This document shows positions 10,043 through 50,255 of a stretch of DNA of 64,000 nt, piece after piece. Origin of the DNA: Parerythrobacter aestuarii (lineage in GTDB: Bacteria > Pseudomonadota > Alphaproteobacteria > Sphingomonadales > Sphingomonadaceae). The stretch's first letter is position 1; every line of letters begins with the position of its first letter. The notes under the pieces were generated by a model. The model was given only the letters and a program-made list of their open reading frames with translations. It ran no database searches and was not told the origin of the DNA. The DNA lies in assembly GCF_030140925.1 (NCBI RefSeq), contig NZ_JARBWD010000001.1:1612001-1676000 (forward strand). The letters run 5' to 3'. The position numbers and the translations under genes are program-made.

Positions 10043-13000
10043 GCGGCAAGCAGCTCGTTTACCCACTCAGGGACCAGCAGTCTGAAGCGGTCGAACCGCG
10101 TGACAGCGTGTGGCTTTCCGCCAGCGCTGGTACCGGCAAGACCCAGGTGCTTTCGGCCCGTGTCCTGCGACTACTACTGAAAGAGGACTGCGAGCCCGAA
10201 AGCATACTCTGCCTGACCTTCACCAAGGCAGGCGCGGCTGAGATGGCCACTCGCGTCAATGAAGTGCTGGCCAGCTGGGTGCGGATGGATGACGACGCAC
10301 TGAAGAAGGATCTTGAGGCCATCGGCGCGAGGTGCGGCCCTGAGGAGCAGGCCCGCGCTCGTACCCTGTTTGCGAAGGTGCTTGATTGCCTTGGTGGCGG
10401 CTTGCGGATCGATACCATCCACGCTTTCTCGCAGTGGATACTGGCAGCTTTTCCGGTGGAAGCAGAGCTTGTTCCGGGGACCAAGGCGATGGAGGATCGC
10501 GAGAAGGTCCTGTTGTTCCGCCAGGTGTTGTCCGAGTTGTTGCTGGAAGGCAATCCGGCCGACATGGAAGCGCTTGCCGACCTCTCGGTCAATCATGCCC
10601 CGGATGGTGCGAAAGGTTGGCTGATGCGCTGCGCCGAAGCGATCGAAGTTTGGACGGGCAGCAATGGCTGGGAGGAACCACGACCATTGCGCGAGCGGGT
10701 AATGAACTTGCTAGAGCTACCGGCGGACTTTGACGCCGCCCAACTCGCCCTGATGTGCACAGACGATGCGTTCGATGTGCAATCGCTCAAGAGGATTCGC
10801 GATTCCTACAAGGAGTGGGGGACGAAGAGTGGTCTCGAAATGGCAGGGTTCATTGACGAGTGGCTGACTCTGGCCCCGACCGAGCGCCTCGCAGCAATGG
10901 GTTTGCTGACCAAGAGTGTTCTGGTTGCGGATGGCAGCAAGATCAGGAGCTTCACGAATGTCCTGAAGGTTGACCCGGACATTGTATCTTTTGCGGACCG
11001 TGTATTCGATGCCTATTGGGAAGTTGTCGGTCGGCAAAACCTGTTGAGCCTCGCCGATCGCCTGACCCCTGCGCTCACGCTTGGTCGAAAATTCGCCCTG
11101 GCATGGGACGAGCGCAAGAAACGCGCCGGATTGATCGACTTCGATGACCAGATTCGTCGTGCGGCAGAGCTACTTGGTCGCGAAGGGCTGGGACAGTGGA
11201 TCAATTACAAGCTCGACCGGCAGTTCGATCATATCCTTGTCGACGAGGCGCAGGACACCAATGAAGCGCAATGGCAGATCATCCGAGCGCTCACCGGCGA
11301 ATTCTTCGCCGGTTATGGCCAGCACGACAACAAGGTGCGTACAATTTTCGTTGTCGGGGACTACAAACAGGCGATCTTTGGCTTCCAGGGGACCAGCCCG
11401 GAGAATTTCCGCCGCCAGAAGGAGATCTACCGGGCCGAGATTGAGGCCGCGATCAAGAACGCTCGCGAACTGGCTGAAGACGCGCGCACCAACATGCCCA
11501 TCGAGCTGCGTGAGCTGCGCGAACTCGGTTTGGGCCGTAGCTTCCGCACTGCGCAGAAAGTGCTCGATTTCGTAGATGCTGCGATCGACACGATTGGGCG
11601 CGATGCCATTGGCCTTGGCGACGGAGATGAGCGGCATGTCGGGGAAGATCGGCCCGGACTTGTTACCTTGTGGAACCCGGTTTTCAGCACGGAGGATCAG
11701 GGCAACGCCACTGATTCCGATGATGAGAGCTGGCTCACACCATCGGATCGGAGAATGGCAGACCGGATCGCTGAGCAGGTCACACTCTGGCTCAAGCAGG
11801 GCCACCCTCTCGCGAAGGGCGAACCGCGCAACGCCGGACCGGGCGACATCATGGTGCTGGTGCGCAAGCGGCGTGCGCTGGCTGGCCTGATCGTCGCTAG
11901 GCTCCATGCTGCGGGGGTGCCGGTGGCTGGCGTGGACCGCTTGCGGCTTGGTGCACCGCTTGCCGTCAAGGACCTTGTCGCCGCATTGCGCTTTGCCGCG
12001 CAACCGCTCGACGATCTCAACCTCGCCAACCTGCTGGTCTCGCCGCTTGGGGAGTGGTCGCAGGAAGACCTGCTCGAATATGGCGACCGTGCGGACAAGG
12101 TACGCTTGTGGGACCATCTGCGCAAACATGACGCGCCGTTCGTGATGGCCACCGTCGACCGGTTACGTGCACTGCTGGAGCGGGTCGATTTCGAGCCACC
12201 CGAGTCCTTGCTGCACTGGATGCTCACCGGCCCATGGCAAGGTCGGCGCAAGTTGGTGGCCCGACTGGGGCGCGAGGCCAACGATCCGATCGACGAATTG
12301 CTCAACGCCGCTTTCGCTTACTCCTCTGCACATACGGCAAGCCTGGCCGGTTTCATCCATTGGTTTGATGCCGGGGATGCCGACGTCAAGCGCGAATCCG
12401 GTGGTGACAATGACCTGGTCCGGGTGATGACCGTACATGGCTCGAAGGGCCTGCAGGCACCCATCGTCATCCTGGCGGATGCAGTCGGCAATCCCAAACC
12501 GGGGGACAATCTCTCGCTATCGTTGGAAGATGAGGGAAGCGGAGAGCAGGTCCCAGTCTTGCCTGTCGCCAAGAAAGAGCGTGTCGGTCGAATCCTGGAC
12601 CGTGCAGAAGCCATGACTGCGGCAGAGCTCGAGGAACACTGGCGGTTGCTCTATGTCGCCATGACCCGGGCAGAGGAAGCGCTTTATGTTGGCGGCGCAC
12701 TGGGCAAGCAGGAGAAAGAACCCGCGCCTGATAGCTGGTACGCCCGGCTCGAACCGCTGATGACAGGTGATGATCTTGCCGATGATATCTGGGGTGGCCG
12801 GCGCGAATGGGGCGCTCTCCCCGCGAAGGTTGCCGAGAGCAAGCAGGGGAAGGACGAGCAAAGAGTCTCCGTTCCCACCTGGGCCAGGACGCCGATCGGT
12901 CCGGAACCGCGCCCGCCGCGGCCGCTCGCGCCTTCCAATGCGGGGGAGGATCGCAGTGCCGATCCACCGCTGCCCCCGGATCAAGTCGTGAAGGCTGCGC

Positions 13001-26296: not shown

Positions 26297-26349
26297 GCGG
26301 GCCGGGTAGGGCACTCGCAATGGGCGTGCAAGCGGCTATAGGTGCCATC

Positions 26350-28410
26350 ATGCGCCCGGATATCCTCAACCCGCTGTTTGCTGAGGTCGATACGCTCGAC
26401 GGCGTGGGGCCGAAGCTGAAGAAGCCGCTCGACAAGCTCGGTCTCACCCGGGTGCGCGATGTTGCCTACCACTTGCCCGACCGCTTCGTCACCCGGCGGG
26501 CGGTTCAGAACCTCGATGAAGCAGGCGAGGGTGAACAGATCGTCATTGCGCTTACCGCGACCGAGCACCGCCCATCGCGCAACAATCGCGGGCCGCACCG
26601 GGTGTTTGCGCAGGATGCGATCGGCAATATCTGCGCGCTGACCTATTTCGGGCGTGCCAGCTACACTGCCAAGAAGCTACTGCCGGTGGGCGAGCTGCGC
26701 TGGGTGGCGGGAAAACTGGAGCGCTATGGCGACATGCTGCAGATCGTCCATCCTGACCATGTGCTGGAGCAAGGCGGAGAGAGCCTGCAGCGATTGTGCG
26801 AGCCGGTCTATGCATTATCCGAAGGGCTTACCCAACCAAAGGTGGCGAGCCTGGTCGGACAAGCCCTGGGCAACCTACCACGGCTTCCCGAATGGATCGA
26901 ACCGGGCCAGTTCGAGAAGCAGCAATGGCCGGACTGGGCCGATGCGCTCAAGTTGGCGCACAAGTCCGAAAACGCGCTGGCACGCGATCGGCTTGCCTAT
27001 GATGAACTGCTCGCCAACAGCCTCGCGCTGATGCTGGTGCGGGCTGACAATCGCCAACGCAGGGGCAGGGCCTTGGTTGGCACTGGCCAACTGCGCAACA
27101 GGTTGCAACTGCCGTTCCCCCTTACGGGGGCGCAGAAGCGTTCAATTGCCGAGATCGAAGGCGACATGGCGCAGGAAGCGCCGATGCTGCGCCTGCTTCA
27201 AGGCGATGTCGGTGCGGGTAAGACTGTGGTCGCGCTCGAGGCCATGCTGGTCGCGGTCGAGGCCGGAGCGCAGGCGGCCTTGCTCGCCCCAACTGAAATC
27301 CTCGCCCGACAGCATTTCGAGACCCTGCGTGACATGGCTCGCCCGACGGGCGTGGAGGTTGCGCTGCTGACTGGCCGCGACAAGGGTCGGGCGCGCGAGA
27401 GTATCCTGATGGGCTTGCTCGACGGTTCGATCCAGATCGTGGTCGGCACACATGCGATCTTCCAGGATTCGGTGAACTATCGAGACCTTGGACTGGTGGT
27501 GATCGATGAGCAGCACCGCTTTGGTGTTGCCCAACGGTTGCAACTGGCTCGCAAGGGCAAGCGAACGCCGCATACGCTGGCTATGACCGCCACCCCAATC
27601 CCGCGCACGCTGACCCTCGCGCAATATGGCGAGATGGACGTCAGCAAGCTCGACGAAATGCCGCTCGGGCGTCAGGCCATCGATACCCGCGTTGTTGGGC
27701 AGGATCGGCTCGGCGAGGTCGTCGATGCAGTCGGGCGCCATATCGAAAGCGGCCAGCAGGCCTATTGGGTTTGCCCCATGGTGCATGACAGTGAGACCAC
27801 TGACCTCGCCGCGGCCGAAGCGCGCTATGCGGTATTGAGGGAACGGTTCGGTGACACCGTCGTGCTGGTCCATGGCCAATTGGAACCGGCGGCCAAGGAT
27901 GCCGCAATGGAGCGTTTCGCCAGCGGCCAGGCGAAATTGCTGGTTGCGACTACAGTCATCGAAGTCGGTGTCGATGTCCCAGCGGCTACGCTGATGGTGA
28001 TCGAGCAGGCAGAGCGTTTCGGCCTCGCCCAGTTGCACCAACTGCGCGGCCGAGTAGGGCGTGGATCGGAGAAGTCCGTCTGTCTTCTGCTACGTGGGGA
28101 GGCCCTGTCAGAAACCGGACGGAAGCGCCTTGCCCTGATGCGCGAAACGCAAGACGGGTTCCGTATTGCCGAGGAGGACCTCGCGCTTCGCGGCGGCGGC
28201 GAGTTGCTGGGCACGCGGCAATCGGGCGACACGCCGTTTCGGGTTGCGGACCTTGAGCAGATACAGCGTCTGCTACCGATCGCTCATGATGATGCCCGCC
28301 TGCTGATAGATCGCGATGGCGGCCTCAACTCGCACCGCGGTGAAGCAGCGAGAGTGCTACTTTACTTGTTCGACCGTGACTGGGGCGTACAGCTTTTGCG
28401 AGGAGGCTAG
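26350..28410 (+). CDS. recG: ATP-dependent DNA helicase RecG
   Basis: 686 residues from the ATG at 26350. RecG reverses stalled forks and migrates branched DNA. The N-terminal wedge (OB) domain contains DGVGPKLKKPLDKLGLTRVRD and a FGRASYTAKKLL segment. Motor motifs are GDVGAGKTVVALEAML (Walker A, about residue 292), VIDEQHRFGVAQR (DEQH box), MTATPIPRTLTLA, VATTVIEVGVDVP and QLRGRVGRGS. It is the last housekeeping gene before the thiopeptide cluster; the cluster leader begins at the base after its stop. Confidence 0.97.
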   Translation: MRPDILNPLFAEVDTLDGVGPKLKKPLDKLGLTRVRDVAYHLPDRFVTRRAVQNLDEAGEGEQIVIALTATEHRPSRNNRGPHRVFAQDAIGNICALTYFGRASYTAKKLLPVGELRWVAGKLERYGDMLQIVHPDHVLEQGGESLQRLCEPVYALSEGLTQPKVASLVGQALGNLPRLPEWIEPGQFEKQQWPDWADALKLAHKSENALARDRLAYDELLANSLALMLVRADNRQRRGRALVGTGQLRNRLQLPFPLTGAQKRSIAEIEGDMAQEAPMLRLLQGDVGAGKTVVALEAMLVAVEAGAQAALLAPTEILARQHFETLRDMARPTGVEVALLTGRDKGRARESILMGLLDGSIQIVVGTHAIFQDSVNYRDLGLVVIDEQHRFGVAQRLQLARKGKRTPHTLAMTATPIPRTLTLAQYGEMDVSKLDEMPLGRQAIDTRVVGQDRLGEVVDAVGRHIESGQQAYWVCPMVHDSETTDLAAAEARYAVLRERFGDTVVLVHGQLEPAAKDAAMERFASGQAKLLVATTVIEVGVDVPAATLMVIEQAERFGLAQLHQLRGRVGRGSEKSVCLLLRGEALSETGRKRLALMRETQDGFRIAEEDLALRGGGELLGTRQSGDTPFRVADLEQIQRLLPIAHDDARLLIDRDGGLNSHRGEAARVLLYLFDRDWGVQLLRGG

Positions 28411-28425
28411 CCAAATCAAATTTGG
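28411..28425. promoter_or_regulatory. Inverted repeat directly after recG
   Basis: CCAAAT and ATTTGG separated by CAA: a 6-bp dyad starting at the first base after the recG stop. Too weak for a terminator; it is the first of three dyads in the AT-rich leader of the thiopeptide cluster and may be an operator. Confidence 0.35.
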
Positions 28426-28459
28426 GGACGCGATTTGTCGAATATTTCGGATACACGTC

Positions 28460-28493
28460 GATAACGAATTCGCGTTATTCCGATATGATAACG
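28460..28493. promoter_or_regulatory. Repeated GATAACG boxes upstream of the precursor gene
   Basis: GATAACG occurs at 28460-28466 and 28487-28493 as a 27-base-spaced direct repeat, with the inverted copy CGTTAT at 28473-28478 making a dyad with the first. The stretch is strikingly AT-rich compared with the rest of the window. Such clustered half-sites are typical of transcription-factor binding regions, but the factor is unknown. Confidence 0.4.
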
Positions 28494-28544
28494 GATATTC
28501 ACTCCGCTAAACGAGATCAGTACAAGACATGAATTCAACATCGA

Positions 28545-28567
28545 TAGATTGACGGACGATCAATCTA
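28545..28567. promoter_or_regulatory. Perfect 8-bp dyad upstream of the thiopeptide precursor
   Basis: TAGATTGA (28545-28552), a 7-base spacer, TCAATCTA (28560-28567). The dyad covers TTGACG (28549-28554), a good -35 element, with TATACA at 28569-28574 as a poorly spaced (14-base) -10 candidate. A dimeric regulator bound here would sit on the promoter. It lies about 90 bases before the precursor ATG. Confidence 0.5.
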
Positions 28568-28658
28568 CTATACAAGGTCACCCATCCAAGGCGGCAGGTT
28601 CTTAATAATTGGGGCTTGTCAGTGAGAAAAAATGCCTTGGTAAGGAGTGGTGACGAAG

Positions 28659-28841
28659 ATGAAAAAGATGTCAGTGAATTTCGACGACTTTGATCTTGGC
28701 GAACTCGATGCATTCGATGTCGATGTGGTTGAAACCTCGGCCGGCGCTGCCCGGGCTGAGACGGCCGCTTCATGCATTATTTTCTCGTGCAATGGATGCA
28801 GCTGCTCTTGTGATGGTGAGGAGCCCGACAAGGTAGCCTGA
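28659..28841 (+). CDS. Thiopeptide precursor peptide (TbtA-like)
   Basis: 60 residues from the ATG at 28659, with AAGGAG at 28642-28647. GTG codons at 28647 and 28650 overlap or abut that ribosome site, so the ATG is preferred. The leader (1-37) is acidic and helical with repeated FD motifs (NFDDFDLGELDAFDVDVVE), like thiopeptide leaders, and ends ETAA. The predicted core (38-51) is SCIIFSCNGCSCSC: five cysteines for thiazoles and four serines for dehydroalanine. Spacing matches the GE2270/thiomuracin cores, with Ser1 and Ser11 aligned and CSCS at core positions 10-13, which would give a 29-membered ring. A nine-residue acidic tail (DGEEPDKVA) follows, which classic thiopeptides lack. Genes for all classic thiopeptide core enzymes follow, and no LanC or LanM is present, so a lanthipeptide is unlikely. 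Confidence 0.9.
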   Translation: MKKMSVNFDDFDLGELDAFDVDVVETSAGAARAETAASCIIFSCNGCSCSCDGEEPDKVA

Positions 28842-28848
28842 TCGGGGC

Positions 28849-28873
28849 GTGGCGGCAGCATTCATGCCGCCAC
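28849..28873 (+). terminator. Hairpin after the precursor gene (attenuator or processing site)
   Basis: GTGGCGGCA (28849-28857), seven-base loop, TGCCGCCAC (28865-28873): a perfect 9-bp GC-rich stem starting eight bases after the precursor stop. It is followed by pyrimidine-rich ATCTCCCTTCTT rather than a pure T-run. In RiPP operons such a stem commonly lets the precursor message exceed the enzyme message by partial termination or by protecting a processed 3' end. Confidence 0.7.
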
Positions 28874-29087
28874 ATCTCCCTTCTTGCATGGGTTGCCAGG
28901 TGATTCGAGTTGCCAAGTTGCGTGAAGGCGATTCCGAATTGTTTGGCGATTGTACCAAGCCGTTACGCGGCGCATGCTGGGAATCGACATTATTGATCCG
29001 ATGTTTCTCACCACATTTACTGGTTCATGGTGATCTGATGTGCACTGACAATGGATTTCCCGGATTCTTGGTGAACTGTAGCAGTTT
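28874..29087. other. Spacer between precursor and dehydratase genes
   Basis: About 210 bases of lower GC than the neighbours, with no obvious promoter or ribosome site. An open frame from ATG 28888 to TGA 29091 (67 codons, six cysteines) runs through it and overlaps the dehydratase GTG start as GTGA. Third-position GC in this frame is only about half, against a strongly GC-rich third position in nearby real genes, and there is no Shine-Dalgarno sequence. I treat it as probably non-coding but note the overlap. Confidence 0.5.
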
Positions 29088-31859
29088 GTGAATCAGCAAG
29101 AGATCCTGGCAAACCTTGGTGTCTCCAATTCCTATGTCGATCAGCGCTCTCCAGGCAAATTGACCTCGGATATGCAGGATGCAACTGCGCGAAATTTCGT
29201 TGAAGATCAGTCTGCTTTGGCGGCGCGCTCCGCAGTCACGGTAGCGCCCCATCTATTCGTCCGGCTTGCTGGCCTCCCCATTTCCCACTCCTTGCTGACC
29301 GATCACACGGCAGCAAGAGCGCTCTTGCTGGTCGAAGAAGCGGATCTGGAAAGAATGCATGCTGTCGCGGCTGCCTGTTCCAGGTTGGAAGTCCTGGTGC
29401 CCAGCGGTTTTGAAGCGAGTCCGGAGATTGGCCGTGGGCTCATCACCATCAAACGCGATCTCTTCAACCATCGGGCTCTTCGACGCGAGAGGAACCGAGC
29501 CGCGGTAGATTGGCTCGGCTCAAGCGATCGACAACTTATTGATACGGCTTATCAAGCGATCGAGGACTCCGAAGCAACGCGAACACAATACGAGCGGGCA
29601 CATGAAGAAGAGAGGCTGCGGACGCGCATTGCCGCGCTGAATGGCACTGCAGATGGTCGCCTGGGCGCAGGTCTCGCGGTGATCAACCCTGCTCTCTACG
29701 ACGTTCTTGAAGCTGCGAGGGCGGATCGAACTGGCTTAACCGACAAGGAGTTCAACCAACTTACCTCGACCGCCATGCGATATCTTCTTCGCGCCTCCCG
29801 GAAAACCAGTCCCATCGCCACATTTGGTCCCGTTTGGACGGCAGGATGGGAGGGGGAATACACGGTTGGGCAAGGCATCGGCGCACCCGAGCTTATTAGC
29901 TGTACCAGGAAGGTACGCTCCGCTTTGCTCCAGCGGCTCATGCAACACCTTCTGATCGATTGGGAAAATTTGGCTGGTGACGCGCCAGTCGCACTCAACC
30001 GGTCATTGAGCTTTAGCGAAGAAGGGGCTTGGGATTGGTGGAAGCGTCGCTTTGATGAAGCACCCAATGCCATACTGTCAGGCGCGCAACTCGAGCGAGT
30101 TTCCGGTCGGTCCGGAGCGATCTCGGCGATAGCGAGGGTTTTTGGATCGCATGGCCACGGTTTCATGACCGTCGCTGAACTTCGACAGGTCCTAGGGACT
30201 GCAGGCGGCGAGCATGTGAGTGATCGAATGGAGAAGGCCCTCCGATCTGCGTGGCAATCCCAACTCCTGGTTCCGATGCTCCATGACCATCAGGATGGCC
30301 TCGCTTGGGCGCGCGCAGCGACGAAACTACTTGCCCCGCACCTGGCATCAGCCATCGGCCCCAGGATCGAGGCACTTTGCGAATTGAGCGTTGACGAAGA
30401 CCTACCGACGCGCGTTCTCGTGAGAGAATACCAAGAGGAATTCGCAGGGCTGCACGAGGCTGCCGGTATTCAGGGTAGCGAAGCGGTCCGGTCGATACTG
30501 ACGGTCGACGCGCGAGCTGGGGGATTGGGCGATCGCCATCCCCGTCTGCCCGGTTCTTTGATCGCCACGTTGACGTCGCTGTGTCGTGCCATGCCTGCGC
30601 TAGCGGCCGACACGCCGAGTGCTCAGATGTTGGCCGGGATGCGCCGTCTCTTCGATGATCGGAACCCACGTGGTTCGGAAGGCAAGGAGCCGCTGTCTTC
30701 ATTCGTGCAAGCATATTTCGATGCTGGAGGGGAAACCCAGTCGGAGATTCTTCAGCGCGCGATGGGGATGCCCGGAGCCACTGGTGAATTCGACCCGGAT
30801 CCGATAAATCGTGGCGGTGCAAGGTTTCTCGATGATCTCGCTGCAGAGGCACGATCTTGCGAGGAAATCCGGTTGTCCTCTGGTGAACTTGAGAGTTTCT
30901 CCGACAAGACAAGTGGGCACGATTTCGACTACGTATCGCTGCAGTTCCATATCCAGTCGATTGGGGGAGGGAAGACCTTCGTCCTCAATCAGATATTCCC
31001 CGGGGCATGCTCGACATTGACCCGTTTCCTTCCTCGGAAAAAGGCCCCAGAGCAAAGCGATTACCTACGCAGAACACTCGGTCCACGCATTCCGTTTGAG
31101 ATAAATGCCGCCTTCGGATTCAACGCAAGTGCGCATCCCGATCTCGTGGACCTTGCCCTTTCCATTCCGCCAATTCCCGACTGCAGCGAACGTGAATTGA
31201 TCGATATCAAGTCTTTGTGGGTTGAGCGGGGCAGCCGTCCGGACGAGTTGCGTGTAAGAGGTCCCGAAGGACAAGAATACGCTCCCATATTCGTTGCTGC
31301 GCTCAATCCCATGTCTTTGCCAAAACAGTATCAGGCATTGCATGCGCTTTGCGTAAATCACTGGCGACATTCGGGGCTTTCAACTTCGATCATTCGTCGC
31401 GCCATGGAGGGTTTTGACGGTTTCTGTGCGCTTGCGCGGGTAAGTATCGATGATGTGATCGTCTTGCGTCGAACCTGGCTGGTGTCAGTTGAAGAGCTGC
31501 CCGATGTGGAAATCGGGTCAGCGGATTTTTTCCGGGCATTCAATACTTGGGCCGATCAAAAAGGCCTGCCGGTGCATCTGTTCTACCAAGCCAATGCCTT
31601 TCCCATGCCAGGAGACGAAAGGCCATTGGATCGACCCCACAATCGAAAGAAGCCCCGCCTGTACAAACCCATGCCGCTCGATCGCAATTGCGCCCTCGGA
31701 GTTGAACTGTTCCAACAGGCCGCCAGGAAATCGACTCTGGGATTGCTGCTGTGTGAGGCTTTGCCGTCGCCAACGGATGGAAGCTACACGTGCGGCGGGG
31801 AACCTGTGGCGGCGGAACTGGCGGTTGAGATCACCTGCCACAGGTTGATCGATGATTGA
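29088..31859 (+). CDS. Split LanB dehydratase, glutamylation subunit (TbtB-like)
   Basis: 923 residues, GTG start. LanB-type dehydratases use glutamyl-tRNA to glutamylate Ser/Thr of the precursor before elimination to dehydroalanine. The family start PHLFVRLAGLP is at about residue 54, RKTSPIATFGPVW (the usual R-x-TPFG-like block) near 237, and the late region RTLGPRIPFEINAAFGFNA to LNPMSLPKQYQALHALC also fits. The protein ends without the roughly 300-residue elimination domain, which is encoded separately at 37693, as in thiopeptide systems. The first 53 residues are an unusual extension; an alternative start is ATG 29173, also without a clear ribosome site. It overlaps the next gene by eight bases. 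Confidence 0.85.
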   Translation: MNQQEILANLGVSNSYVDQRSPGKLTSDMQDATARNFVEDQSALAARSAVTVAPHLFVRLAGLPISHSLLTDHTAARALLLVEEADLERMHAVAAACSRLEVLVPSGFEASPEIGRGLITIKRDLFNHRALRRERNRAAVDWLGSSDRQLIDTAYQAIEDSEATRTQYERAHEEERLRTRIAALNGTADGRLGAGLAVINPALYDVLEAARADRTGLTDKEFNQLTSTAMRYLLRASRKTSPIATFGPVWTAGWEGEYTVGQGIGAPELISCTRKVRSALLQRLMQHLLIDWENLAGDAPVALNRSLSFSEEGAWDWWKRRFDEAPNAILSGAQLERVSGRSGAISAIARVFGSHGHGFMTVAELRQVLGTAGGEHVSDRMEKALRSAWQSQLLVPMLHDHQDGLAWARAATKLLAPHLASAIGPRIEALCELSVDEDLPTRVLVREYQEEFAGLHEAAGIQGSEAVRSILTVDARAGGLGDRHPRLPGSLIATLTSLCRAMPALAADTPSAQMLAGMRRLFDDRNPRGSEGKEPLSSFVQAYFDAGGETQSEILQRAMGMPGATGEFDPDPINRGGARFLDDLAAEARSCEEIRLSSGELESFSDKTSGHDFDYVSLQFHIQSIGGGKTFVLNQIFPGACSTLTRFLPRKKAPEQSDYLRRTLGPRIPFEINAAFGFNASAHPDLVDLALSIPPIPDCSERELIDIKSLWVERGSRPDELRVRGPEGQEYAPIFVAALNPMSLPKQYQALHALCVNHWRHSGLSTSIIRRAMEGFDGFCALARVSIDDVIVLRRTWLVSVEELPDVEIGSADFFRAFNTWADQKGLPVHLFYQANAFPMPGDERPLDRPHNRKKPRLYKPMPLDRNCALGVELFQQAARKSTLGLLLCEALPSPTDGSYTCGGEPVAAELAVEITCHRLIDD

Positions 31860-32808
31860 GTACGGCCTCCGCGTCGGTTTTCCCGATCCAACCGATTGGG
31901 GTTCAGGAGTCTCGCTGTTGTGGGAGGCGCTGACCTGCTGTTCCACTGAGACAGGTTTTACCTTTGCCTTGAGTCTGTGTCCCGAACGGAAGAATTCAGT
32001 GCTCGTCGGTGTTCGCGGAGCATTCGAATGGTTGGAACTTGAAGAGCGTATCGAGAAAGCCGCACAAAGCTCAGGTCTAGCGGTGCAACTGGAACGCGGC
32101 ACCTTTCACAGTCAAATCCCTCTCGGCTTGCCGAAACTTGCAAGCGTTCGTGATGATTTTCGAGAGGCTATGTTCGGCAATTTGTCCTGCCTGATGAAAG
32201 GTCATCCCCAGGACGCGCCCTCTCGTCTCATCGCCGTAGGCGAAACATTCCTGTTGCTTGACCGTATCGATTGGGCGGACGGTCTGCGCTTGTGGCCATT
32301 ATCACTGATAGGGCAAGTTTGGGCATTTGAACGGACGGGGGGAAGCGCGGTACAACCGGCGTTTCAAGCGGCAGAGCGGTTGATCCCGGTTCTTGCTGCG
32401 TCAGAAAAGACGCATGGGCTTTTCCAGCACGACACGACGCTGCCCGAGCATTTGGCCGCACGCCTCAGTTGCCTCCAGACTGCCTATAAGGGAGTCTGCA
32501 CTTTGGTTGCCGAAATCGCACCAGCCGAGCGCGACCGCCTGAGCGAAAGTGCCGGGACTTTGCTGGCCGATATCCTGTCCGCAACCCACACGGCTGACGA
32601 AGCTCGCCGCACAGCCGCCCATCCCAATCACATGGCATACAGGATTTTCATGAGTTTGATCTACGACCTGGCTCCCCTCATTGCGCTACCCACTACGCGC
32701 CGGATCATGATTTTTCGGGCCACTATTGAGCTTTTGCGGCGGCATTATCCGTCCGTGATGACAAATGTGTTCGAGAGCGGAAACCAGTTGAGGCAGCCAA
32801 GCCTGTGA
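31852..32808 (+). CDS. Divergent small LanB-like protein, candidate [4+2] pyridine synthase (TbtD-like)
   Basis: 318 residues. Position in a thiopeptide operon and size match TbtD/PbtD enzymes, which join two dehydroalanines in a formal aza-[4+2] cycloaddition, closing the macrocycle and expelling the leader as a carboxamide. Sequence support is weak but present: the C-terminal HPNHMAYRIFMSLIYDLAP resembles the HM-x-x-NRL end of the thiopeptide-type bacteriocin biosynthesis domain seen plainly in the protein at 37693, and SQIPLGLPKLASVRDDFREAMFG resembles the mid-domain. No other cluster gene could do this step. The ATG overlaps the dehydratase stop by eight bases. Assignment is by elimination and context. 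Confidence 0.55.
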   Translation: MIEYGLRVGFPDPTDWGSGVSLLWEALTCCSTETGFTFALSLCPERKNSVLVGVRGAFEWLELEERIEKAAQSSGLAVQLERGTFHSQIPLGLPKLASVRDDFREAMFGNLSCLMKGHPQDAPSRLIAVGETFLLLDRIDWADGLRLWPLSLIGQVWAFERTGGSAVQPAFQAAERLIPVLAASEKTHGLFQHDTTLPEHLAARLSCLQTAYKGVCTLVAEIAPAERDRLSESAGTLLADILSATHTADEARRTAAHPNHMAYRIFMSLIYDLAPLIALPTTRRIMIFRATIELLRRHYPSVMTNVFESGNQLRQPSL

Positions 32809-34403
32809 CCGGTATCGAACCGTCCCGTCTCAAACCGTCGGTGATCTGGCGGCGAACGAACGCAGGTATCCTTGTCGAGCATGGACGCAGAAGTTTCGAG
32901 ATGCGTGGAAGCAGCAAGGTTTTTTCAGCTGTTACGCGCCTCCTCGGGTTACTGGATGGAACCCGCTCAATCGACGAAATCCACCAAGGCATTCCCGAGC
33001 CGGTTCAGAGCTTGCTCGATCGTTTGGTAGTCGAACTCACAAGCCGGAACATGCTTACGGCGAGCGGTGAGGTTCCGGCAGAATGCCGTCAGGTGCCCAA
33101 TGAAGTCGTCCGTCTGGTCCAGGACAGGTGCGAAGACTGGCAAAGCGCTCTCACGAGTTGGTGCAAGCAAGACGTGAGAATTTTTGCGCCGGGCGAACTG
33201 ACCGAGAAGATTGGGCGCTATTGCACCGGCTTGGGCGTACATTCTGTGCAGGGCTGCGAGCCCGATGGTCAACAGTTGTCCCAGCAAAAACCGCTATGGA
33301 TCTGGGTCGCGACAAATTCATCGGACGCGCATCGAGCGTTGGAAGTCGGAGACTGCGCCGGTGTAGTAGGCGCGGCCATGCGGGGGCCGTTGGCAGCCTT
33401 GCTATCGGGAGAACACAACAGGCTGGCGCATTTGCCCGCATTGCTGGACAAACTTCCAGACCTTGACGAGGGCTTGAGTGAAGCGGTCGTCAGCGGATTC
33501 TGCGCATTGCTTGCTCATGAGGCGCTACAGCTACATTTGCAGCCATTTCAGGATGAAGACGGCCGACAGGCCAATGAGATGCGGCTGTTCCGGCGCGACG
33601 GTTCGGTGCGGAGGTTACAGTTGGATGCAGCACTGCTGTCATCAGGGCCGTTTGACGTTGACAGCGCATCGCTTGCAGCGATCCCGCAGGCCGAAGGTCA
33701 CCTTGCGCCCTTGTTCGATCGCGATACGCGTCTAATGAGTTGGACTGATGATCGCACCCCCGGGGTGCCCTTTCCGCTCTTTCATCGCAGTCTTGCCTTG
33801 GCGCAGTTCGGTGTGGCGGAGCACGATTCAAAATCGGTCTGTGAATGGGGTCTGACACCGGAAGAGGCGGAAAATCGCGCGATCCGGAGTGCGTTGCTGG
33901 AGATTGCCCGACGGAGCGAAACTCATCCTGTTCCAGATAGTTATTCGCCCCTGCTGGTCGAAGCTGATGAGAGCGACGCGCTACACATGGCTCGTGCCCT
34001 GCTGGCTGCACAGGATCATAAGTTGTGGAATCGCTCGAACCAGACACGCGTTGAACTGGACCAGGGCTGTGACGCCGAGCTTGATGCAATGGTGAGGCTT
34101 GCCCGGCTTTTTGCTGGAGGCCGCATGCCAAAACTGTTCGTCGGGTCGGATCCGCATAAGGCGGCATTCGTAGGCACGGCGGAGATTGCCGAACGATCAG
34201 CCAGCCGATTGTCCACGACAAGAGATCGCGCGCTCTACGAGGCAATCGGGACAATTTTGAGCAGCGTCCAACGGGGCACTGAGCTGGAGGACTGTCTTCC
34301 AGACAAATTGGTTGGGGAGGGGGGAGAGTCTACTTTCGTACCTAACGACGTGCTTGAATTCAGCAACTATGGCTTCGCGGTTGGTCGCGTGCGGTTCGGG
34401 TAG
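32805..34403 (+). CDS. RRE-containing leader-binding protein, ocin-ThiF-like (TbtF-like)
   Basis: 532 residues, GTG start overlapping the previous stop by four bases. The N-terminus (RLKPSVIWRRTNAGILVEHGRRSFEMRG to LLGLLDGTRSIDEIHQGIPE) has the winged-helix RiPP recognition element pattern that binds the leader and presents the core to the cyclodehydratase. The rest resembles the degenerate ThiF/E1-like partner proteins of thiazole systems, with no nucleotide-binding GxGxxG, so it is not expected to be catalytic. It directly precedes the YcaO gene, the usual F-G arrangement. The family call rests on the N-terminal pattern, length and context. Confidence 0.75.
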   Translation: MTGIEPSRLKPSVIWRRTNAGILVEHGRRSFEMRGSSKVFSAVTRLLGLLDGTRSIDEIHQGIPEPVQSLLDRLVVELTSRNMLTASGEVPAECRQVPNEVVRLVQDRCEDWQSALTSWCKQDVRIFAPGELTEKIGRYCTGLGVHSVQGCEPDGQQLSQQKPLWIWVATNSSDAHRALEVGDCAGVVGAAMRGPLAALLSGEHNRLAHLPALLDKLPDLDEGLSEAVVSGFCALLAHEALQLHLQPFQDEDGRQANEMRLFRRDGSVRRLQLDAALLSSGPFDVDSASLAAIPQAEGHLAPLFDRDTRLMSWTDDRTPGVPFPLFHRSLALAQFGVAEHDSKSVCEWGLTPEEAENRAIRSALLEIARRSETHPVPDSYSPLLVEADESDALHMARALLAAQDHKLWNRSNQTRVELDQGCDAELDAMVRLARLFAGGRMPKLFVGSDPHKAAFVGTAEIAERSASRLSTTRDRALYEAIGTILSSVQRGTELEDCLPDKLVGEGGESTFVPNDVLEFSNYGFAVGRVRFG

Positions 34404-34408
34404 TTGCA

Positions 34409-36229
34409 TTGGGCCTGCAGGATGAAGATCGAATGGCGGTTATCGGACGGGCCGTCGCGCCGGGTCAAAGGCTTTGCTTTGCTCACTTGGCCGATCATTC
34501 GAGTTTGCAGGACATGGTTGCGGAAGCGCGGGAGCAGGGTGAAACGACCCTGTTGGTGGCTGGCGATCAACGCGATGTGTGGATTATCCCGGCGATCACC
34601 CAATCGGCTTGTTTTCATTGCTTTGAGCTCTGGCGATATCAAGACAAGCTACTCGAAACGCCGGTATCCTGGTCTGGCGACGATCAACTTGGCTGGTGCC
34701 GCTTGCCCGAAGCAGCACAGGCTTTCGTCGACATGGCAATAGCTACCTATCCGTCGCAAAGTCCGGAATCGGCGGCGAATGCGCGCCATTGCGATCTTGT
34801 TTCCCGGACCGTGGAGGATCACCGTCTCCTGCGGCATCCATCGTGCCGGCTTTGTGCGGCAAGCAACAAGCTAGAAGTGCCACCGCCGGCGTCCAGCACG
34901 TTTGACGAGTCCGGCCAATCAGCCTTTGAACGCGCGCTGAGTCTGGGACACTTGCAGGTCATCCTTCGCGAACGAATATTCGATGTCGAGCACGGGATTG
35001 TGAGATCTCTCACCCGCCAGAGCGGTAGCAGGATTATCCCGGTCGCTTCCGTCAATGGATACAACTACTCCGGCCCTGGATCGGCCACATGGAGCTTTGG
35101 TCGAACAGGCCACTGCAACACCGATTGGACCGTCGCATGTTTAGAGGCGGTCGAACGGTTGTCCGGGTTGAGGCCGGTTCGCGGGCGGCGCACGGTCAGG
35201 GGATCTTTTGAAGAGCTTTCCGACAGCGCCGTCGACCCTCGGCTGTTCCTGTTGCCCGAGCCTCCCGGGCCAGATGAAGACGGTTCGGTGTTTTCACCCT
35301 TTTCGCCCGAGATACGGTATGATTGGTGCGAAGGCTTCTCTGTCGCGCGGGCTGGACCCGTCCATGTCCCTCTGCAGCTGGCATATTATGGCATGGCAAA
35401 GTCCGAGATTGCCGGCGGTATTTTCGTTGATGAGAACTCGAACGGTTGTTCGCTTGGTGGATCGATCCTGGAAGCGGCCTTCCACGGCCTGCTGGAGCTG
35501 CTCGAGCGAGACGCGTTCCTGCGACATTATTATGCCGATGCAGTGGTGCCGACATTTCCCGCAGAGGCATTCTCAGATCCGTTCATCGATGGCCTTGCTG
35601 CGCGAATTCGCGCGGACGGCTATGAGATCGATTTTCTGCAATTGCCTACGGGCACTTTGGCTTGCGCGATTGCGGCGCGAATTCGCCACGAAGCGAGCAC
35701 CACGGGACCAGCCCTGGCTTTTGCTGCGGGTGCGCATCTTTCGCCCACGCGCGCAGCGCGGGCAGCGGCATGCGAAGTCGCGTCGAACATTGCTTCCCCT
35801 TCATCGGAAACCCTTGCCGAAAATCGCCAGCGAGGATTGCAGCTGTTGAATGCGCCGCATGAAGTTAAAACGATGAAGGACCATGGATTGCAGGGTTGGC
35901 CGAACGATGCATTCGACATGCGTGACTTTCGTACACGGACCGGAAGCGGCTTGAACCCGTCTTCACTTGATATTGGGCTGAGTGAGGCGTTCCATTCGTT
36001 GACCGACTCACTCGCAGGCAGCGGCATTGATGTCATCGTCGTCGATCAAAGCCATCCCAACCTGGTCAAAAGTGGGCTGCATTGCGTTAAGGTGCTTGCA
36101 CCCGGGCTATTGCCAATGACCTTCGGTCATCGCCGCCGCCGCTTGAATGCCAAGGCATTGGCGCGGCTTCCTCTGGATGATGCAAGGGTGACGGATCCAA
36201 GAACCGTTCGCCCGCATCTGTTCCAATAG
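34409..36229 (+). CDS. YcaO-domain azoline cyclodehydratase (TbtG-like)
   Basis: Up to 606 residues; the ATG at 34433 behind GCAGGA gives 598 and may be the true start, since the TTG at 34409 has no ribosome site. YcaO enzymes activate backbone amides with ATP to make thiazolines from cysteine. Diagnostic: GRTGHCNTDWTVACLEAVERLSG near 240 and SNGCSLGGSILEAAFHGL then ELLERDAF near 345, holding the ATP-binding glutamates. The N-terminal third has two CxxC motifs (CFHC near 68, CRLC near 146), probably a structural zinc site of the fused cyclodehydratase half. The C-terminus is RTVRPHLFQ and not the PxPxP tail common in azoline-forming YcaO proteins. Confidence 0.88.
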   Translation: MGLQDEDRMAVIGRAVAPGQRLCFAHLADHSSLQDMVAEAREQGETTLLVAGDQRDVWIIPAITQSACFHCFELWRYQDKLLETPVSWSGDDQLGWCRLPEAAQAFVDMAIATYPSQSPESAANARHCDLVSRTVEDHRLLRHPSCRLCAASNKLEVPPPASSTFDESGQSAFERALSLGHLQVILRERIFDVEHGIVRSLTRQSGSRIIPVASVNGYNYSGPGSATWSFGRTGHCNTDWTVACLEAVERLSGLRPVRGRRTVRGSFEELSDSAVDPRLFLLPEPPGPDEDGSVFSPFSPEIRYDWCEGFSVARAGPVHVPLQLAYYGMAKSEIAGGIFVDENSNGCSLGGSILEAAFHGLLELLERDAFLRHYYADAVVPTFPAEAFSDPFIDGLAARIRADGYEIDFLQLPTGTLACAIAARIRHEASTTGPALAFAAGAHLSPTRAARAAACEVASNIASPSSETLAENRQRGLQLLNAPHEVKTMKDHGLQGWPNDAFDMRDFRTRTGSGLNPSSLDIGLSEAFHSLTDSLAGSGIDVIVVDQSHPNLVKSGLHCVKVLAPGLLPMTFGHRRRRLNAKALARLPLDDARVTDPRTVRPHLFQ

Positions 36230-36230
36230 A

Positions 36231-37688
36231 ATGACTGTGCGCGACCTATCAAAGCAGGAGGCCATTCAGGCGGTTGCCGCCTATATCGTCGCAACCTGTG
36301 AACGCAGGTTGGAGTTGCAAGGCTACAAATGGGATGAAATTCGCGCTCTTACCTTGGGAGAGACGCCTCCTTCCACAGCGCGACCCAATGGTCCGCTTCA
36401 GCCTTCTGAAAGGGGGTGGGAGCGGTTCCTGCCTGGGGGCAATCCTGTCGAAGGATGGGCCATCGCCCGCAATTCAGAGGGAAGTCTGGCCGAAATACTC
36501 AGCCTTAGCTGTATGCCGCTTCGGTTCGAACCATCCAACGCTTCGCTTTTTCACAGAGGCATCGCATCGGCCGGGGCAACATATCCGATAGACGTGCGGC
36601 TGGATATTTCTGGTCTGGTAGGAGATAGTTTCTGGCTTCAACTCGATCCGTACCAGTCTTGCCTGTTGCAGACCGGGCAATCGGTGGGGACCGATGCTGC
36701 CTCCGGCGAGGTTCGGATCGTGCTGAGCGGCGACCTTCGCAAATGCCTTCACCCGTATGGCGACATGAGCGCCAATCTGGCGGCATTTGAAGCTGGTATG
36801 ATCGCGCACCAGATATTGTCGTTCGCACAGGCATTTGGCTGGCACGCCGAGGCGTACCTCGTTGGCGACGCGCATAAGGCAAGGCGAGAGCTTGGCATCG
36901 GGACGCCCGACCTTTGGCCGCTGCTCCAATTGCATATTTCCACTGGGGCAGACGAACCTGGAAAAGGCTTGAATCGTGGGATGTTTCAACCCTCGGGGAT
37001 GCCGTCGAGCGATTTGTCTGGAGCCAATTTCCCATTCCTGGAACGCTACCGTCATGCTTGTGAATGTCGCGCGTCTCGGATGGAGAACCTCAAGCTCGCC
37101 GCAACGCGGCTGGGTCTAGGTCGTTACCACTCGCGCGATGAACTGCGGAACCTTTGCCTGCGCCGAACCTCGGGAGCATTGTCCGGCAACGGTCGTCCCG
37201 ACGAGGTGTGGTCCAACGACGAGATATCCGGGATTATCGATCATCTTTCCACCTCGATGGCCGCAGGTCCATGCGAACAAATGGCACGACTTTCGTCCGT
37301 CCATCTCTCGTTTCGTGTATCAGAGACCACAATTCGCTCGATCCAGTGGGAGCCCTCGACGGGCGAGTTTCTTGAGCGGCCGACAATGCCCGGCGAGATG
37401 GCGGCGCTGGAAGGCATGCAAGCAAGTTTCATCGCTACTTTCGCGATCGATGATACCGAAATGCTGTGCGAGGTCGGACCACGCGGTCATCTGGCATCGA
37501 CTATCTTGGTGGGCTTGCTTGTCCAAATGGTGTCTTTGGCCGCTACATCATTGGGGCGAGATGCACGGGCTATCGGGGCGTATGACGGCACTGCGGCAAA
37601 CTGTCTCTTCTCCTTCGACCGACGGGCACTTTTGCAGGTCAAGGCCAGCCGATCGGTAAGGCCGAATCCTTCTTTTGTGATCGGGTAG
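36231..37688 (+). CDS. SagB-type FMN azoline dehydrogenase (TbtE-like)
   Basis: 485 residues. It belongs to the nitroreductase-fold SagB family that oxidises thiazolines to thiazoles with FMN. The best signature is FHRGIASAGATYPIDVRL near residue 105, corresponding to the R-x-x-PSAGA-x-YP FMN-binding block, followed by SFWLQLDPYQSCL and a long C-terminal domain. The N-terminal 100 residues are an accessory region usual in TbtE-like proteins. It begins one base after the YcaO stop, which suits the joint cyclise-then-oxidise work of the two enzymes. The family is fairly clear; catalytic residues cannot be assigned by eye. Confidence 0.8.
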   Translation: MTVRDLSKQEAIQAVAAYIVATCERRLELQGYKWDEIRALTLGETPPSTARPNGPLQPSERGWERFLPGGNPVEGWAIARNSEGSLAEILSLSCMPLRFEPSNASLFHRGIASAGATYPIDVRLDISGLVGDSFWLQLDPYQSCLLQTGQSVGTDAASGEVRIVLSGDLRKCLHPYGDMSANLAAFEAGMIAHQILSFAQAFGWHAEAYLVGDAHKARRELGIGTPDLWPLLQLHISTGADEPGKGLNRGMFQPSGMPSSDLSGANFPFLERYRHACECRASRMENLKLAATRLGLGRYHSRDELRNLCLRRTSGALSGNGRPDEVWSNDEISGIIDHLSTSMAAGPCEQMARLSSVHLSFRVSETTIRSIQWEPSTGEFLERPTMPGEMAALEGMQASFIATFAIDDTEMLCEVGPRGHLASTILVGLLVQMVSLAATSLGRDARAIGAYDGTAANCLFSFDRRALLQVKASRSVRPNPSFVIG

Positions 37689-37692
37689 GGCG

Positions 37693-38727
37693 ATGACAAA
37701 GCCTCGCGAGGCATATCCCGAGACCGGCTCACTCCTCACAAGCGACCTTCCTCCGGTCGATGGCTGGTCGGCGTGGCATGTCTTCCTCTATGATTTCGGG
37801 GAGCAGGATGCCTTCCTTCACGAAGTCGTTGCGCCCCTGCTCGAAGGGATGAAAGCTCGGCAAGGCGAGACCTTCCGCTGGTTCTACATCCGCTACTGGG
37901 AAAATGGCTCACACCTACGCTTGCGCTTCCGGCACCTCGGCAGGAGCGATTTTGAAGACATCGGCAGGCAATTGCTTGCTTCAGTCGAGCGGTTTGCAGG
38001 CACACCAAGCGCAAGTATGCTCCAGGCATCCGCATCGCCATCTGCCGGAGGTTCGGGTGGTCCTGAGATACCAGTGCTCTTTCCGGCCGGGACAGTTGCG
38101 GAGATTGCCTACGAGCCGGAAACACGGCGCTATGGTGGCCGGCAATGCATTCGGGGGTGCGAAGATGCCTTCGAAGTGTCCAGCTCGATAGCCCTGCACT
38201 TTCTGGGGAGCGACCGGGCCACTGCAGCGGGACGGCGTGGGCTGGGGCTCTTGCTGACTGCCATTGGTGCGGCAATGGCGACCTCGAACGAGATGGAACT
38301 GTCCGCCTTCATGGCAGAAACACAATCGACATGGGCGCACTACCTTGGCGATCTGGTCTCCGGTACATCATCGCCGCACAGTCGTGCTCCGCGCTCACAG
38401 GAGATCGCACACCACGTGCTTTCCCTCGCATTGGCATCGCGCGAAGGCCAAATCCCTAATGACCCGCTTGCTGGGCAATGGACCGACCTGCTTGTCGCTG
38501 AGAAGGAACGAATGACAGCCCTGCATGTGCTGGGCGCGCTGGTTTGCCCAAGGACAGGGGCTGTAACGCGGTCAGATCATGATCGGGACCGGGCGATCGC
38601 GAGCATATTCTCATCCTACAACCACATGATGATGAACCGGCTGGGGATCACACCAGCGCTGGAGTATGAGTTTGCCTCTCTGCTGGCAGAAGCTCTGGCA
38701 AGCAGTCCTTCTTTGAGTGAGAACTGA
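37693..38727 (+). CDS. LanB elimination-domain protein, thiopeptide-type (TbtC-like)
   Basis: 344 residues. A textbook stand-alone SpaB C-terminal / thiopeptide-type bacteriocin biosynthesis domain: WHVFLYDFG, then RWFYIRYWENGSHLRLRF near 62, IAYEPETRRYGG near 139, SSSIALHFL, and the closing SYNHMMMNRLGI near 309. In split LanB systems this subunit eliminates glutamate from glutamylated Ser/Thr to give dehydroalanine, working with the large subunit at 29088. Its gene is last in the operon, far from its partner. It ends 24 bases before a convergent phosphatase gene, which marks the cluster boundary. Confidence 0.87.
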   Translation: MTKPREAYPETGSLLTSDLPPVDGWSAWHVFLYDFGEQDAFLHEVVAPLLEGMKARQGETFRWFYIRYWENGSHLRLRFRHLGRSDFEDIGRQLLASVERFAGTPSASMLQASASPSAGGSGGPEIPVLFPAGTVAEIAYEPETRRYGGRQCIRGCEDAFEVSSSIALHFLGSDRATAAGRRGLGLLLTAIGAAMATSNEMELSAFMAETQSTWAHYLGDLVSGTSSPHSRAPRSQEIAHHVLSLALASREGQIPNDPLAGQWTDLLVAEKERMTALHVLGALVCPRTGAVTRSDHDRDRAIASIFSSYNHMMMNRLGITPALEYEFASLLAEALASSPSLSEN

Positions 38728-38750
38728 ATGCTGGCTCCTCGGCGGTTGAG

Positions 38751-39224
38751 CTAAAGCTCAGAGCGGAAAGACCGGACCAGCGCCTGCGCAGCCATCCAGA
38801 CGTCTTCCCATGTGTCTGCGAAGTTCTCTTCGCCGCCATAGTAGGGGTCCGCCACCGCTGCACCTTCACGGCCCGGAACCATATCCATCAGAAGCGCGAC
38901 GTGTGCCTCATGGTCGCCGGGTGCAATGCGCCGGATATTTGGCAAGTTCGAATGGTCCAGCGCGAGGATGTGGGTGAAGCGGGTGAAATCCGCTGCCTGG
39001 ATCTGTCGGCCCCGATAATGGGCAATTTCTATGCCATGCCTGGCAGCGGTGCGGATGCTTCGAACATCGGGTGGTTCGCCGACATGATAGGCTGCGGTTC
39101 CGGCACTGTCCGCCTCTGCGTCCAGACCGGCATCGGCCGCAGCCTTGCGAAAAGCGGCCTCGGCCAGCGGCGAACGGCAGATATTGCCGAGACAGACGAA
39201 CAGGACAGCGGGCGTGATGCTCAT
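38751..39224 (-). CDS. Low-molecular-weight protein tyrosine phosphatase
   Basis: 157 residues. The P-loop VCLGNICRSPLAE gives the CX5R signature with nucleophile Cys11 and Arg17, and the general-acid aspartate is in VADPYYGG. These cytoplasmic enzymes dephosphorylate phosphotyrosine, and some bacterial members regulate polysaccharide export, but no export genes or tyrosine kinase lie nearby. The ATG overlaps the stop of the upstream ABC1-kinase gene (ATGA), so the two are coupled. It is an ordinary chromosomal gene on the right side of the thiopeptide cluster. Confidence 0.93.
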   Translation of the reverse strand: MSITPAVLFVCLGNICRSPLAEAAFRKAAADAGLDAEADSAGTAAYHVGEPPDVRSIRTAARHGIEIAHYRGRQIQAADFTRFTHILALDHSNLPNIRRIAPGDHEAHVALLMDMVPGREGAAVADPYYGGEENFADTWEDVWMAAQALVRSFRSEL

Positions 39225-49480: not shown

Positions 49481-50091
49481 GCAAAAGGTCCGTATATCCG
49501 GGTCGGCGTGATAACTGCATCGAGCTGCTGGTCATGCGGTTCGAGAGGAAGGGATTCCACCAGCTGGACATCCCACGCAAGACCGACCTTGGTCTTGCCC
49601 GGATGGGCATCAAGCCAGCGATCGTAATGCCCACCGCCCTGGCCCAGCCGATGCCCATCGGCAGTAAATCCGACCAATGGCATGAACAGGACATCCGGCT
49701 CCATCGTTTCGGCATCGGGGGCCGGCTGCATGATTCCGAAAGGGCCTTTTGCAAGATCGCTTGCGCCGAATGGATCAGTATGAGTCGCGAACTCCATCGT
49801 GGAATCGCGCTGGGCAAAGCGGGGCAGGACAATCGCATGACCTCGCTCGTAAAAGAACTTTGCATAGGACGCCGTCGGCGCTTCATCCGGGGTAGAGTGA
49901 TAGAGCCCGATGACCGCATCATCGGCAATCATCGCAAGCAAGGGAGCGGGTGGCCGATTGAACAGAAGCGCGCGGATAGCCTTAGGCTGCGCTCCTACAT
50001 GGTCGCGCCGGAACTGGCGCAGTGATTTCCGGAGCTCTTGCTTGTCCTGCACTGAGTACTCTCTCCGAAAATCGAGTGGCGGAACCACCAT
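49477..50091 (-). CDS. 5-formyltetrahydrofolate cyclo-ligase
   Basis: 204 residues. It converts 5-formyl-THF to methenyl-THF with ATP, recovering storage folate. The N-terminal KQELRKSLRQFRRDHV, the PLVGFTADGHRLGQGGGHYDRWL nucleotide and folate-binding block near 145, and VGLAWDVQLVESLPLEPHDQQLDAVITP are all typical. Gene order zapA - structured RNA - this gene repeats the proteobacterial zapA-ssrS-fau arrangement. Coupled to the DUF2842 gene downstream. Confidence 0.95.
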   Translation of the reverse strand: MVVPPLDFRREYSVQDKQELRKSLRQFRRDHVGAQPKAIRALLFNRPPAPLLAMIADDAVIGLYHSTPDEAPTASYAKFFYERGHAIVLPRFAQRDSTMEFATHTDPFGASDLAKGPFGIMQPAPDAETMEPDVLFMPLVGFTADGHRLGQGGGHYDRWLDAHPGKTKVGLAWDVQLVESLPLEPHDQQLDAVITPTRIYGPFA

Positions 50092-50102
50092 GGGTCGTTG
50101 CC

Positions 50103-50255
50103 CGAGAAATCCTCTGACGCCTAAACGTCAGGTGGGCGCCGTTTACCCTGGTCCCCAGGACGAACCCGTTAACCAGGGCAGGGACAGCTCCCTAGGATTG
50201 CTTATAGCCTCAGGGATATTCAAACGGCTCGTGCCGGGCAGTCCCGCCGCCTGGC
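50103..50255 (-). ncRNA. ssrS: Probable 6S RNA
   Basis: The 167-base space between zapA and the cyclo-ligase gene is the standard location of ssrS. On the minus strand GCCGTTT (50228-50222) pairs with AAACGGC (50144-50138); inside, CCCTGGT pairs with ACCAGGG, and TCCCT/AGGGA form a further helix, giving a long, interrupted rod with an open centre as in 6S RNA. Outside, CAGG...GGG pairs with CCC.CCTG. A CTGACG/CGTCAG hairpin (50114-50131) follows at the 3' end, perhaps a terminator. 6S RNA binds the housekeeping polymerase in stationary phase. Ends are approximate. Confidence 0.65.

Follow-up and report, generated by a model that had tools for sequence, protein, structure and literature searches.

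A probable thiopeptide-type operon with a highly divergent predicted ring-closing enzyme in the sphingomonad Parerythrobacter aestuarii

Thiopeptides are ring-shaped antibiotics known mainly from Gram-positive bacteria, and a 64,000-nucleotide stretch of the alphaproteobacterium Parerythrobacter aestuarii (bases 1612001-1676000 of contig 1, hereafter the window; genome 3.02 Mb, given as 100% complete) raises the question of whether such a pathway is also encoded there. A first-pass annotation had proposed that seven co-oriented genes, here A to G, form a complete thiopeptide cluster equivalent to TbtA-G of thiomuracin. All seven frames are indeed present, open and on the forward strand, and the flanking genes that had been taken as those of a sphingomonad, recG and a low-molecular-weight phosphatase gene, are recognised by NF008164 and PF01451 (Table 1). 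We find that the seven genes very probably constitute a complete thiopeptide-type operon that would turn peptide A into a pyridine-centred macrocycle. As judged from its sequence, the cluster is a complete operon of thiopeptide type that belongs to a sphingomonad lineage and whose candidate ring-closing enzyme diverges strongly from known ones, its chemistry and role being predicted.

Table 1. Features of the operon, its flanks and the rest of the window (window coordinates)
Feature	Position	Strand	Basis
A: precursor peptide, 60 amino acids	28659..28841	+	acidic leader, then core S1-CIIFSCNGCSCSCDGEEPDKVA
Intercistronic hairpin, strong	28849..28873	+	3' of precursor stop
B: LanB-type glutamylation protein	open reading frame from GTG 29088; likelier ATG 29172..31859	+	PF04738
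C: divergent pyridine ([4+2]) synthase candidate, 318 amino acids	31852..32808	+	hhalign, fold, residues
D: leader-binding protein, N-terminal RRE	32805..34403	+	PbtF profile match
E: YcaO azoline-forming cyclodehydratase	34409..36229	+	PF02624
F: SagB-type azoline dehydrogenase	36231..37688	+	TIGR03605
G: LanB-type glutamate elimination protein	37693..38727	+	PF14028, TIGR03891
recG	26320..28410	+	NF008164, 940 bits above cut-off
Low-molecular-weight phosphatase gene	38751..39224	-	PF01451
6S RNA gene	50078..50247	-	52.7 bits

Precursor, enzymes and predicted ring

Gene A fits the precursor that had been claimed: it encodes an acidic leader followed by a Cys-rich core, and its Ser/Cys-rich core (SCIIFSCNGCSCSCDGEEPDKVA) begins with Ser, as in a thiopeptide precursor; the protein database has it as 63 residues from GTG 28650. 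Only three of 385 window open reading frames of 40-90 residues have at least five Cys in the last 25, and by eye A alone among the three has an acidic leader. A search across 5.8 billion proteins with A matched only the window's own protein. The claim also survives in a relative that keeps the enzymes, an uncultured Erythrobacter (CANKYI010000001; L004/L037), where two copies of A stand with intact frames at 76-78% identity. When A is compared by codon with one of these copies, differences fall at 52.6% of third positions and at 12.3% and 14.0% of first and second positions.

Only B, E and G exceed curated cut-offs in Pfam and NCBIfam scans. For A, D and F the evidence is weaker or comparative, and C is placed by its fold and profile. 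Hidden Markov models or profiles put every protein but C in its proposed family; neither of the two outcomes that the annotation had named as refuting it, failed family placement and a lost or broken precursor in relatives with the enzymes, came about. B scores 38.2 bits against PF04738 (cut-off 28), in keeping with the claimed glutamylation role, and the best PDB match of its four-row profile is 6ec7 (E-value 6.7e-38), which we take to be TbtB. Its start is probably ATG 29172, because the start of its L004 relative aligns there. The claimed elimination role of G is likewise borne out by scores over both cut-offs, 125 bits for PF14028 and 83.8 bits for TIGR03891 (cut-off 48.45), and its segments FIRYWE, RRYGG and HMxxNRLG-type are invariant in nine of nine homologues, so that B and G supply the split LanB dehydratase of a thiopeptide pathway. 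E is the YcaO protein that had been named, at 206 bits against PF02624, over the cut-off; against TIGR03604 it scores 180.5 bits (E-value 4.4e-53), under the cut-off of 219. D had been described as RRE/ocin-ThiF-like, and the first half of that description stands: its four-row profile matches the RRE chain of PbtF, 8t19 (E-value 1.9e-6), over the first 86 positions, giving E a leader-binding partner. The second half does not, as TIGR03693 gives 9.9 bits (E-value 0.19) against a cut-off of 561.9. D also has a PHP_C match (E-value 8e-4, below its cut-off) covering 17 residues, and its AlphaFold2 model is unusable (pLDDT 35). F, at 37.2 bits (E-value 2e-9) against TIGR03605, we count as the SagB-type dehydrogenase that had been predicted, though it lies below the curated cut-off; its PF00881 score is not significant (E-value 0.34).

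The set has seven proteins equivalent to those of thiomuracin and GE2270 (Tbt, Pbt), with B resembling 6ec7, D the PbtF RRE and C the PbtD/TbtD fold, so the equivalence to TbtA-G that had been drawn is upheld. It needs refinement, however, in that the set resembles lactazole at least as much. Tailoring genes are missing from the window cluster and its gene order differs from that of Tbt. The order A to F is that of lactazole, which has a C-terminal tail as well. Five enzyme roles are shared with lactazole (LazA-F, Streptomyces lactacystinaeus), for which the account in PMC7210931 gives LazB as glutamylation protein, LazC as putative pyridine synthase, LazD as RRE, LazE as YcaO and LazF as dehydrogenase plus elimination protein. 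The window cluster differs in dividing the LazF functions between two genes (F and G), in a C protein so divergent that the pyridine-synthase model does not match it, in a Cys-rich core followed by a tail of 9 residues, and in its alphaproteobacterial host. Pyritides also have a split LanB and a [4+2] enzyme, and a pyritide leader ends EVGA before Ser1; as described in PMC9247985, MroB, C and D suffice for them with no azole enzymes, so the window cluster, with its azole-forming D, E and F, falls outside that class.

The mechanism that we propose is modelled on the thiomuracin and lactazole pathways. D would bind the acidic leader through its RRE and present the core to E, which would cyclise the five Cys, and F would oxidise the resulting azolines to thiazoles. 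Using Glu-tRNA as donor, B would glutamylate Ser residues, and elimination of the glutamate by G would leave dehydroalanines. C would then join dehydroalanines 1 and 11 by a formal [4+2] cycloaddition, expelling the leader as an amide, so that the product would be a ring of 29 members that carries a hydrophilic tail.

Thiomuracin has a 29-membered ring, and the size predicted for the window product is the same. Ring size was taken as 3X-4 for Ser1 joined to SerX, which gives 29 for Ser11 and reproduces the pyritide ring sizes 14 and 17 mentioned in PMC9247985; the predicted product masses take leader-NH2 and water to be lost, in the way PMC7210931 describes for lactazole. With the full tail, [M+H]+ is predicted at 2159.70 when all four Ser are dehydrated, or else at 2177.71 or 2195.72; a product trimmed after GEE would lie at 1649.42-1685.44. 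Five of six sphingomonad cores have Ser11, each time preceded by Cys or Ser: the window's, those of L004 (A1 SCVIFSCNGCSCACFGEE; A2 SCVIFSCNGCSCSCFGEEQR), L039 (SSGISSCNSCSSCGSSSCVALN) and L063 (SSGISSCNSSSCCLSTSTCQLT). The sixth, L038 (precursor at 9976-10179, reverse strand; core SCCHNGSSCSGSTQTEITPG), would have its second Ser at 8 or 10, and its predicted ring, with 20 or 26 atoms, would differ from those of the other cores. We infer Ser1 and Ser11 to be the ring-closing pair in the window. Closure at Ser13 (35-membered) or Ser6 (14-membered) instead is unlikely. The Cys12-Ser13-Cys14 pattern does equal Cys10-Ser11-Cys12, and rings of 14-68 members are within reach of such enzymes according to PMC9247985, but L004 A1 carries Ala at position 13, Ser11 is so widely kept, and the residue before Ser6 is Phe in the cores of the window and L004, which leaves no azole before it.

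The candidate ring-closing enzyme and the readings of the operon

The weakest of the original gene readings was that of C as a candidate [4+2] enzyme, and this now has support from profile, fold and catalytic residues. C carries Arg264 and Tyr271, the Tyr being conserved, and aligns structurally with PbtD and TbtD at about 10-15% identity. C has no match to the TbtD/PbtD equivalog NF045556 at E-values up to 1, so we name it a divergent pyridine synthase by its fold and not as a member of that equivalog; with reservations, we count it as the [4+2] homologue with catalytic Tyr that a thiopeptide pathway needs. A 29% match to C in a relative (L003) was set aside, since its open reading frame resembles, by eye, an ordinary oxidoreductase.

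Several observations weigh against a complete thiopeptide-type pathway. C has no Pfam or NCBIfam match of any kind, and its own three-sequence profile matches no PDB chain; both the PDB profile match and the AlphaFold2 alignment lean on two added relatives. The hhalign probability for C is modest at 64%, and with a third synthase included it drops to 24% locally (51% globally). Foldseek TM-scores against PbtD and TbtD are 0.42-0.59 with root-mean-square deviations of 9-12, and LanB dehydratases follow close behind in E-value. C has no counterpart of the WxxGPH segment that PbtD, TbtD and the three sphingomonad synthases share. Precursor A reaches 27.2 bits (E-value 2.7e-6) against NF033400 thiazolyl_B, below the cut-off of 30, F stays under the TIGR03605 cut-off of 78.4, the island between the flanks (28411-38750) holds no transporter, regulator or immunity gene, and no product is known. 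For NF033400, A is in company: two of the six sphingomonad precursors exceed the cut-off (L024/L039 at 64 and L005/L063 at 55 bits), and the others score 24.5, 23.6 and 24.2 (the last being L025/L038).

A goadsporin-like pathway, yielding a linear thiazole/dehydroalanine peptide without a pyridine and with C in some other role, such as that of a scaffold or a further elimination-type subunit, would account for the failure of every family model to recognise C. Next after 6ec7 among the matches of the B profile comes 9jhq, the goadsporin LanB (E-value 5.4e-24), and goadsporin clusters have the split LanB, YcaO and dehydrogenase in common with ours. They are described in PMC4603692 as having no [4+2] protein; C is present here, which places the window cluster outside the goadsporin type, and we consider this reading very unlikely. 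We see a slim chance at best that the cluster is recently acquired, silent or decaying and makes no product in this host. Its occurrence in one of five genomes of the genus, the missing accessory genes just mentioned and a simple sigma-70 scan that found no promoter-like site on the forward strand in 28400-29200 would fit such a history. All seven frames are nevertheless open, and relative to L004, third codon positions differ 1.6-2.1 times as often as first positions in the six enzymes and about 4 times as often in A, a sign that the proteins have long been under selection, which does not extend to activity in this particular host.

With the thiopeptide-type operon retained, the product would most likely act as an antibacterial translation inhibitor. 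Thiopeptides with 29-membered rings bind EF-Tu; the one EF-Tu copy over cut-off in the genome has no striking private change relative to three congeners, a comparison that does not cover the known resistance positions.

Related clusters, origin and expression

The cluster is no isolated oddity: at least five such clusters, this one included, were seen in sphingomonads. The closest, in L004, has the same gene types in the order A1, A2, B, C, D, E, F, G, with enzymes 50-61% identical to the window's. Three more distant sets, L025/L038 (G367), L024/L039 (G232) and L005/L063 (Erythrobacter crassostrea WH158), hold a precursor whose leader ends PETGA before Ser1, a LanB glutamylation protein, a pyridine synthase, a YcaO and an elimination protein. 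In L024 (14385-18626, reverse strand), the B-type LanB glutamylation protein is fused to the pyridine synthase in one open frame. L005 (5452-9950) and L024 (1-2313, reverse strand) carry a second YcaO with TfuA plus an ABC ATPase, and L005 also has JAB and ThiS-rhodanese-ThiF proteins. These additional genes suggest that the two clusters may make thioamidated products.

A tree built from 25 elimination proteins (midpoint root only, four rows on long branches) puts 12 of them in one group with support 95/98, five of these from known sphingomonads. This group is separate from 10 PF14028-PF00881 fusions (named hosts: Hamadaea, Streptomyces, Catellatospora, Paenibacillus), and such fusions make up 10 of the 18 non-self database matches of G. 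Among 396 genomes of the order, four have G-type proteins, the window's genome being one of them, and among five of the genus it is the only one. NF045556 matches occur in 2 of 397 genomes of the family and 1 of 398 of the phylum, the own genome being counted in both; its match is the G N-terminus, not C, so that a synthase is shown in 1 of 397 and 0 of 398. G367 is not among the family matches, its presence in that sample not being established. A scan of genome contigs gave 13 loci from 54 stretches, two of them alphaproteobacterial.

Three congeners have an empty site: recG leads directly to the phosphatase gene, with 7 (G398), 18 (G396) and 16 (G389) bases between the matched ends, and in the fourth (G397) the contig ends just past recG. 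GC content in 2-kb steps is 0.555-0.582 in the island and 0.610-0.632 in the adjoining steps, with some distant parts of the window down to 0.578, and GC at third codon positions is 0.56-0.63 in the seven genes versus 0.67-0.82 in five flanking genes. The island ends (28409-28470 and 38726-38800) have no common word of at least 6 bases, and a plasmid search with E gave 49 records, all below 60% identity. Gain in this species is likelier than loss in three congeners, and the operon was probably acquired horizontally by P. aestuarii. The recG match in G396 (L031 1501-3580) has one TAA inside the aligned stretch.

Within the operon, B/C and C/D overlap and the gaps D/E, E/F and F/G are 5, 1 and 4 bases. 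A and B are the sole spaced pair, with 246 bases to GTG 29088 or 330 to ATG 29172, and the hairpin lies in this space. Folded on 28836-28890 it has -27.9 kcal/mol (z -3.70), and 0 of 200 shuffles were equally good; its stem GTGGCGGCA also stands 3' of L004 precursor A2 with a different loop, and L004 A1 is followed by a long hairpin of another kind. No terminator-like site or T-run was found in 28400-29200, which makes processing or mRNA stability likelier than termination, and we regard the hairpin as a likely processing or stability element.

The scanned neighbours of the L004 cluster comprise a TonB-dependent receptor, peptidases S51 and M14, DUF819, GST and a LysR regulator, with two further genes matching nothing. 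TonB-dependent receptor genes lie near two clusters (L037 2613-5996, reverse strand; L038 3493-6381, forward strand). Such nearness may be chance, as genes of this type are numerous in the group: PF00593 matches number 23 in the window's genome alone, although the window itself holds none. Thiopeptides are reported in PMC10128021 to enter cells via siderophore receptors. A bolder reading, to which we give little credence, is that a thiopeptide lineage of their own exists in sphingomonads, its pyridine synthase pared down and invisible to current models, and that its 29-membered, charged-tail products would serve as weapons among Gram-negatives via TonB-dependent receptors and not against Gram-positives.

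If the thiopeptide-type operon works, thiopeptide chemistry would be at home in an alphaproteobacterial group, in which a single family has several types of core and two clusters adjoin genes of the thioamidation kind. As a pyridine synthase that shares only 10-15% identity with those of solved structure, C would then help show which residues the [4+2] reaction needs, and the gene set is small enough for cell-free reconstitution. As the curated pyridine-synthase model misses C outright, surveys keyed on that model would undercount proteobacterial clusters.
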